Origin: Arenicellales bacterium
GTDB taxonomy: Bacteria > Pseudomonadota > Gammaproteobacteria > Arenicellales > Poriferihabitantaceae
Assembly: GCA_028285825.1 (NCBI GenBank)
Contig: JAPYNK010000185.1
Location: 1 to 39,143 of the forward strand
DNA length: 39,143 bases
Direction: 5' to 3'
Shown: piece by piece, positions 34,993-39,143 of the stretch
How positions within the stretch are numbered: the stretch's first letter is position 1
Layout: each line of letters starts with the position of its first letter
The notes under the pieces: generated by a model
The model's input: the letters and a program-made list of their open reading frames with translations, nothing else
Told to the model about the DNA's origin: nothing
The model's database searches: none
Made by a program: the position numbers and the translations under genes

Positions 34993-35006
34993 CACGCCAC
35001 ATTGCT

Positions 35007-35037
35007 ATTATAATGGCAGTCATGTACATGGTTGCAA
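35007..35037 (-). promoter_or_regulatory. Candidate hemA promoter
   Basis: On the minus strand TTGCAA (35032-35037) is followed after 19 bases by TATAAT (35007-35012). The start would be near 35000, giving a leader of about 115 bases that includes the inverted repeat at 34964-34992. Confidence 0.35.
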
Positions 35038-35337
35038 TAGTCAAGCAGTCCCGAGCAGAACACGGCATGCCCTTTGCCTGCCCCCTTCGTAATCACTTCC
35101 TTGACAGTTCTGCCGTCGGGGTGAGGATTGCCCCCCTTTCGCTGAATGCAAAAACCGCCTGTTTTTGAACGTGAATCTTCCATCCCCGGTTCCGGCATTT
35201 TCACAAATGGCAAGTGAAGGATCATTACCATGTTTTAGCTTGAATTTAGCAAAACCAGAAATGCAATTCCCGTTATAATCATTTCGACAACTTTGAATGT
35301 CATCTTGCCTACCCGACGGTTACTCCGCTACCACTCA

Positions 35338-37178: not shown

Positions 37179-37841
37179 ATGCAACCATCCCGCTGGGCAA
37201 CATTTCTTCTGTTGCTGGCTCTGTCTGGCTGTACCACTGCCCCTCCTTTTCTGGAAGACCGAGAAGGACTGTCGATAAAGGAACGGTGGCTGTTGCAGCA
37301 ATCCACCAACCGGACAATTTCCGAGTGGCGGCTCAAGGGCAAGCTTTCCGTCAAGGCAGGCACCAAGGGTGAGTCATCGACCCTTCAATGGACTTTTTCG
37401 GATACAGTACAACACATCCAGCTTTACGGGCCGCTTGGAAGTGGTAGAGTAATCGTCAATGTTGAACCGGGCCGGGCAATACTGAAAGATTCGAAGGGTC
37501 GGGTCATTGAAGGGATGAACGCAGAAGAAGTGCTGCATGAACGTCTAGGATGGCACGTACCCTTCGAAGAACTCTCGTGGTGGTCGAGAGGGCTTCCCGA
37601 CGTCAATTCAACAGGGATTGAGATTGATGGGGACGGGTTGCTCAAACGTCTCAGTCATGGAATCTGGGAAGTTGAATATCTTGAGTACTCGAGAGTGGAT
37701 TCGTTTCTTCTCCCCAAACGTCTGGAGATAATCTCGGAGCCCGGCAAGATCAAGACCTATGACAAAAGAGGCAATTACATAGGCGATCAGTTACGACTCA
37801 TAGTCATTATCAGTCGCTGGAACGATATCGTTGAAGGATGA
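37179..37841 (+). CDS. lolB: Outer-membrane lipoprotein insertion factor LolB
   Basis: LolB receives lipoproteins from LolA and inserts them into the outer membrane. The 220-residue protein has a lipoprotein signal (LLLLALSGC, lipobox Cys at about 18). The LolB core follows: EWRLKGKLSVKAGTKGESSTLQWTF, the IQLYGPLGSGRVIVNV strands, GWHVPFEELSWWSRGLP, and a C-terminal PKRLEIISEPGKIKTYDKRG segment. GGAA precedes the ATG by about 7 bases. Its stop overlaps the ispE start (ATGA), the usual gammaproteobacterial arrangement. Confidence 0.95.
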   Translation: MQPSRWATFLLLLALSGCTTAPPFLEDREGLSIKERWLLQQSTNRTISEWRLKGKLSVKAGTKGESSTLQWTFSDTVQHIQLYGPLGSGRVIVNVEPGRAILKDSKGRVIEGMNAEEVLHERLGWHVPFEELSWWSRGLPDVNSTGIEIDGDGLLKRLSHGIWEVEYLEYSRVDSFLLPKRLEIISEPGKIKTYDKRGNYIGDQLRLIVIISRWNDIVEG

Positions 37842-38683
37842 AAAACGCACCAAGCGCAAAGACAGGGCTACGAATCTTCTCTCCCGCCAAGATCAATCTG
37901 TTTCTGCATGTAACGGGAAGGCGCTCGGACGGATACCACAATCTGCAGACAGTATTCCAGTTTTTGACGCTTCACGACATCGTCGAAATCGAATTGACCG
38001 AGAGTGGAGCCATCGAGCGAATTGACCGGCATGACTTTGAATTGCCGGATATTGATCTGACTGTTCGGGCAGCCGGGTTGATTCGTGAATATACAAAGCT
38101 CGACAACCTCCCGGGGGTACGGATTACGCTTACGAAAGCCATACCCAGCGGTGCTGGCATGGGAGGCGGGAGTTCGAATGCTGCTGCTGTTCTGGTCGGT
38201 CTTAACCGCCTCTGGGGACTTGATCTTGATGAGAGCTCCCTGCTCTATCTTGGCTCTCGGCTTGGTGCAGATGTGCCAATTTTCATCAAGGGGAGTGCGA
38301 GTTGGGCGGAGGGTGTTGGAGATATGCTTACTGACTGCAATCCGCCAGAGAGATGGCATGTACTCTGGATTCCGGATTGCCATGTATCAACAAAAGATGT
38401 TTTTGAACACCCTGACCTGAATCGCAATGACCGAATGATCACGGTTCAGGATTATTTTCAAGGCCGTTACGGCAATTCATTGGAACCGGTGGTCAGGACG
38501 CTGTTCAAGCCAGTTGATGATGCACTTTCGGCTCTGAATCATTATGGAAAACCCCAGCTTAATGGCAGTGGCTGTTCAGTGTTTTTGCCCTGCGACAGCT
38601 TTAAGGAAGCCAAGTCGGTTGCCTCTTCCGTGAAAGTGCCGACCGTTTCGTCTCCCTCTTGCCTGAATTCGGCAATGTATTGA
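37838..38683 (+). CDS. ispE: 4-(cytidine 5'-diphospho)-2-C-methyl-D-erythritol kinase with replaced C-terminus
   Basis: IspE is the GHMP kinase of the MEP isoprenoid pathway. The first 265 or so residues are canonical: FSPAKINLFLHVTGRRSDGYH (catalytic-type K18), the ATP loop IPSGAGMGGGSSNAAA (102-117), LGADVPIF, and the C-terminal glycine loop PQLNGSGCSVFLPCDSFKEA. After VASS the protein continues for 17 residues that are simply the antisense of the opposing SRPBCC gene, and the usual final helix/strand (about 20-25 residues, FVAKG...PL in E. coli) is missing. The join is at about 38615-38632. Because ispE is normally essential, either the tail is dispensable or the join is not biological. 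Confidence 0.9.
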   Translation: MKNAPSAKTGLRIFSPAKINLFLHVTGRRSDGYHNLQTVFQFLTLHDIVEIELTESGAIERIDRHDFELPDIDLTVRAAGLIREYTKLDNLPGVRITLTKAIPSGAGMGGGSSNAAAVLVGLNRLWGLDLDESSLLYLGSRLGADVPIFIKGSASWAEGVGDMLTDCNPPERWHVLWIPDCHVSTKDVFEHPDLNRNDRMITVQDYFQGRYGNSLEPVVRTLFKPVDDALSALNHYGKPQLNGSGCSVFLPCDSFKEAKSVASSVKVPTVSSPSCLNSAMY

Positions 38684-39000
38684 CCCTCGAATCGGTCAAC
38701 TGCTTCAGATTTCAGGACCAGCCTGTTTGGCGGTGATTTTTCGACAAGTTGAAACCGGACTGTCATTCTCGATTTTTCCAGTGTTTCAGTCCAGCTCTGC
38801 CGGTCCTGTGACATCTCGACACGAACAACATCCGAGCGCCAATTCGATTGACTCTCAAAATCCGTATACACTTCCCAAACGGCATTGATTGGTGCATCAA
38901 ACCTTGTCTCGACTGTGGTTCGAGTGGTTGCAGGCATCAATAACACAGCGACTACTGAGAGCCCGATTAGAAGAACGACAATAAGTAGAGCCAGATTCAT
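38542..39000 (-). CDS. SRPBCC-family protein, C-terminally truncated
   Basis: The protein begins with a transmembrane helix (about residues 3-21, LALLIVVLLIGLSVVAVLL) and then a START/Bet v1-like (SRPBCC) lipid- or ligand-binding domain: TVETRFDAPINAVWEVYTDFESQSNWR, MTVRFQLVEKSPPNRLVL, EGQYIAEF. After GTFTEE the expected long C-terminal helix of about 35 residues is absent; the remaining residues are antisense ispE. GGAG lies eight bases before the ATG and a TATAAT (39057-39062, minus strand) lies 57 bases upstream, so the 5' end looks genuine. Without the C-terminal helix the fold would be incomplete. Function unknown; members bind hydrophobic ligands. Confidence 0.75.
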   Translation of the reverse strand: MNLALLIVVLLIGLSVVAVLLMPATTRTTVETRFDAPINAVWEVYTDFESQSNWRSDVVRVEMSQDRQSWTETLEKSRMTVRFQLVEKSPPNRLVLKSEAVDRFEGQYIAEFRQEGDETVGTFTEEATDLASLKLSQGKNTEQPLPLSWGFP

Positions 39001-39056
39001 TGGTCAAACTCCATGGAGAGAATTTCAGTGCGATGCCTTGTCATGAAAAAACGAGA

Positions 39057-39062
39057 ATTATA
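39057..39062 (-). promoter_or_regulatory. Candidate -10 element for the SRPBCC gene
   Basis: A perfect TATAAT on the minus strand lies 57 bases before the ATG, preceded by TTGG; no -35 at ideal spacing was seen. The last 80 bases of the window otherwise hold no gene that I can support. Confidence 0.3.
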
Positions 39063-39143
39063 ACCAATAGTGCTCGAACAACAGGCAGGGGTTCCCTGTG
39101 AAAACAAGCCTTGCCTTTCGACTGCGAAATCATGATAATGATT

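Follow-up and report, generated by a model that had tools for sequence, protein, structure and literature searches.

A chimeric join between convergent ispE and SRPBCC genes in a draft Arenicellales genome, very probably a local misassembly

At one end of a contig from an Arenicellales bacterium, ispE and a convergent SRPBCC-family gene have a tail-to-tail overlap of 142 bp, and each appears to finish in the antisense strand of the other. We asked whether this arrangement belongs to the organism or to its assembly. The window (the whole stretch of DNA analysed, 39,143 bp) is all of contig C96 of draft genome G000, which comprises 2.28 Mb in 238 contigs and is 81% complete. A real junction would mean that an essential enzyme of isoprenoid synthesis functions with a tail taken from antisense DNA.

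Alignment to congeners placed the break within a few bases. With blastn (query 37301-39143), the left match, covering lolB-ispE, ends at 38620, and the right match, covering antisense SRPBCC, restarts at 38617, 523 bp short of the contig end. These breakpoints were seen in G002 and G003, on one contig each, and in G006, on two contigs. The break falls at identical positions in alignments to independent genomes, so the junction is not a chance resemblance. The 4 bp common to both flanks (Table 1) are an apparent overlap. The IspE reading frame (37838-38683) encodes IspE in residues 1-261 and antisense SRPBCC in residues 262-281, its last 20. The SRPBCC frame (complement of 38542-39000) encodes SRPBCC in residues 1-128 and antisense ispE in residues 129-152, its last 24. 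The initial annotation had described two convergent genes that lose their 3' ends at a single point and an SRPBCC protein that ends in antisense ispE residues, and both descriptions held. It was also right about the antisense origin of the IspE tail, which it had put at 17 residues.

Table 1 Features at the ispE/SRPBCC junction and conserved genes with drop-outs elsewhere in the draft genome.
Feature	Location	Strand	Evidence
Genuine ispE body (residues 1 to about 260)	37838..38616	+	TIGR00154 227 bits; 59-73% identity to congeners; dN/dS about 0.1-0.2
Very probable false join, GGTT	38617..38620	.	blastn breakpoints vs G002, G003, G006
Probable artificial ispE tail (antisense SRPBCC codons and stop)	38621..38683	+	Opposite-strand match to congener SRPBCC
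SRPBCC-family gene body, residues 1-128, genuine	38617..39000	-	PF10604 35.5 bits; 73-81% identity to congeners; dN/dS about 0.13-0.23
Probable artificial SRPBCC tail (antisense ispE codons and stop)	38542..38616	-	ORF list and congener alignment
Formate dehydrogenase alpha, cut	G000 C16 (L109)
Homoserine dehydrogenase, cut	G000 C28 (L122)
Transketolase, cut	G000 C32 (L126)
RNase E, shorter loss	G000 C9 (L102)
Other conserved genes with 130-370 bp drop-outs	G000 C38 (L132), C53 (L146)

Upstream of the break, IspE scores above the cut-off of the TIGR00154 equivalog model (139 bits) and matches profile positions 6-269 of 294. The match is not full length: the last 25 profile positions are unmatched, and the E. 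coli protein is likewise matched only up to residue 258 of 283. For the ispE, lolB and SRPBCC bodies, pairwise comparison of the window with congeners gives a dN/dS of about 0.1-0.2, the same level as between one congener and another. The three bodies are therefore under ordinary purifying selection, with no decay beside the junction.

The same locus in relatives shows what is missing. In G002 and G003, lolB, ispE and a convergent SRPBCC gene lie in the same order and orientation as in the window, and this is the normal gene order in part of the genus. Unlike the window, both congeners keep native 3' ends, with an intergenic region of 137 bp (G003) or 178 bp (G002) between the genes. Beyond the break, IspE of G003 continues for 24 more residues and its SRPBCC protein for 36 more. 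The window is short by 327 bp against one of these two congeners and by 368 bp against the other. G006 also has both genes with complete 3' ends, on two contigs (L048 and L049). The same junction with conserved tails was found in no independent genome, being absent from all six congeners examined. A same-species relative was not found among the named genomes, and the contig scan returned only Pseudoxanthomonas and Rhodanobacter, at 46-48%. G002 carries in addition a second, broken SRPBCC copy on contig C4 (L057 1350-1612; 71% protein identity, one stop).

Could the organism itself have lost the segment? In this account a recent deletion at 0-4 bp of microhomology took away the 3' ends of both genes together with the DNA between them, leaving an IspE that works with an accidental 20-residue tail and an SRPBCC gene that is a fresh pseudogene. 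The join is indeed sharp, with at most 4 bases in common. Both frames stay open until a stop soon past it, and bodies without decay are compatible with a recent event. IspE is expected to be essential as an enzyme of the MEP pathway, and it should be so here because ispE is single copy in G000 and IspG was found, so that the pathway is present; this weighs against a replaced tail. The same type of join also cuts many unrelated genes in G000 alone, mostly out of frame. We consider such a deletion very unlikely. It is just as improbable that the cell holds a working IspE whose last 20 residues come from the antisense strand of its neighbour, in overlapping convergent genes with no intergenic region.

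The recurrence of such joins carries most of the argument. We compared about 530 kb of unmasked G000 sequence with about 0.9 Mb of G002, of which about 173 kb aligned. The ispE junction is not alone: over the aligned 173 kb, G000 has 11 sharp direct joins at which it is short by 134-368 bp, ranging from 10 bp of overlap to 27 unaligned bases at the join. No inverted sharp join was found in the same 173 kb. A twelfth difference spans 6.3 kb and may be an insertion in G002. In the opposite direction there were five differences (274-2,289 bp), none of which cuts a conserved gene in two. The lengths missing from G000 vary little and are comparable to the insert size of paired reads.

Several of these drop-outs lie within conserved genes (Table 1). 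A symmetric ortholog scan found 6 internally cut conserved genes among 289 in G000, none among 274 in G002 and none among the 57 of a small control from other congeners (Fisher p = 0.03 and 0.01). Five of the six cut genes in G000 are frameshifted. Three cut genes were searched in 25 genomes, and full-length matches in congeners were continuous. Homoserine dehydrogenase is split in G000 alone; formate dehydrogenase alpha is continuous in six of six congeners, and a 628-residue protein is continuous in G001, G002, G003, G005 and G006. It is not plausible that an organism would carry so many frameshifted core genes while selection on its gene bodies stayed normal; a defective assembly is plausible. 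The initial annotation had proposed a deletion that took the intergenic region and both 3' ends. A segment is indeed missing relative to congeners; a genuine deletion with a replaced kinase tail fits poorly with drop-outs of 134-368 bp that recur through G000 and are seen in none of the congeners.

We therefore read the ispE/SRPBCC junction as, very probably, a local misassembly, that is, a scaffold gap that was falsely closed or stripped. Both flanks are genuine and are neighbours in relatives, with a piece missing between them, and the same defect recurs through G000 and not in its relatives. A local assembly error is far likelier than a deletion because similar drop-outs recur in G000, several of them within conserved genes, and none occur in congeners. 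Most likely, the real genome resembles its congeners here: ispE is complete, as is the convergent SRPBCC gene, and an intergenic region separates them. The assembler or a later step would have eliminated a short gap close to the contig end, by closing it or squeezing it out. Two sequences really about 330-370 bp apart would then have been abutted, creating two artificial chimeric 3' ends. The step responsible may have been the wrong joining of ends linked by paired reads, or the removal of runs of N. The joins are direct and short, with almost no overlap, and the sampled G000 contigs contain no N gaps (eleven short contigs were masked whole), which suggests a wrongly closed or N-stripped gap. 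The fragmentation and completeness of the draft suggest that it comes from a metagenome assembly.

Other technical origins were weighed against this misassembly. Had a repeat been collapsed in a de Bruijn graph, a shared k-mer would be expected, and there is none. A chimera formed by multiple displacement amplification before sequencing would also leave a short complementary sequence at the join. In such chimeras, complementary sequence of 2-21 nt was reported in over 70% and inversions made up more than 85% (Lasken and Stockwell 2007, PMC1855051). The G000 joins resemble them in having few bases in common and a loss of the intervening sequence; they differ in that all are direct. With over 85% expected to be inverted, none inverted in the sampled assembly and missing lengths so narrow, we give an amplification chimera next to no credence.

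A further alternative is that the end of contig C96 is chimeric and includes DNA from another, related organism. SRPBCC shows less synonymous divergence from congeners than ispE and lolB do, as such a chimera might show. However, other genes of the contig vary just as widely in divergence: 43% of same-size windows on the same contig (2,846 codons) have a ratio as low, and the gene order on both sides of the join matches that of G002 and G003. The gene-by-gene and sliding-window comparisons of divergence led us to reject a contig end from another organism, which we regard as extremely improbable.

The preferred reading, a local misassembly, has precedent. Local errors in metagenome assemblies are described as a source of wrong protein-coding sequences in databases (Chen et al. 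2020, PMC7111523). As read here, the G000 junction is like those errors: a short false join through which a draft acquires incorrect coding sequence. They were recognised by missing read support, whereas the G000 join was recognised by comparison with congeners; joins like the one in G000 also recur throughout its assembly within a narrow range of sizes, unlike the published cases.

Assembly of the 3' region of ispE may be difficult in this genus, as the assemblies of G001 and G006 are interrupted there too. G001 has a 10-N gap inside the ispE tail (L052 1898-1907). In G006, one contig ends and the other begins just past ispE, with about 19 nt common to both. In G005, ispE and SRPBCC lie on separate contigs. 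Between the two genes, G002 has a hairpin (L047 1884-1926) with a stem of about 15 bp (-30.6 kcal/mol over 71 nt, z -6.2), which is likely a bidirectional terminator. No comparable hairpin was seen in G003 or in the tested part of G006. As the sole cause of the gap the hairpin was rejected, being strong in G002 but missing in G003 and the tested part of G006.

We searched the rest of the assembly for the missing ends, using the congener missing segment and the complete congener SRPBCC protein as queries. The window was the only match, so neither missing 3' end was found elsewhere in the assembly. The smallest G000 contigs seen are about 2.6 kb, and a shorter fragment could have dropped out of the assembly. 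The search for prs had a different outcome: tRNA-Gln(TTG) followed by prs is intact on contig C177 (L001 792-1845), without ispE upstream. Loss of prs along with a deletion was accordingly rejected. After prs, C177 carries apparent rplY/ctc and pth genes. The expectation of a tRNA and prs after ispE was off target here, since G002 and G003, and probably G006, have the convergent SRPBCC gene there and no tRNA. In G010, from the wider family, tRNA-Gln follows ispE at a distance of about 1.5 kb, near the arrangement that had been expected. Given the order in G010, the old neighbourhood has been broken up in this genus.

The junction is almost certainly a data-quality warning and not a biological novelty. 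G000 appears to have lost pieces of 130-370 bp, unmarked by N, at a rate of about one in every 15-20 kb of comparable sequence. What look like gene fusions, truncations or pseudogenes in this genome should not be taken as biology without the reads. Errors of this kind are invisible to completeness and contamination scores.

Two minor features of the window were also recorded. At 35001-35279, the window has about 265 bp extra relative to the same intergenic place in congeners. An imperfect direct repeat of 14 nt (ATTGCTATTATAAT / ATTCCCGTTATAAT) borders this segment, which is single copy in G000 and was not found in the six congeners. Near the contig end, positions 39105-39140 match C46 4884-4919 of G000 over 36 bp at 86% identity, and both copies lie near the ends of their contigs.
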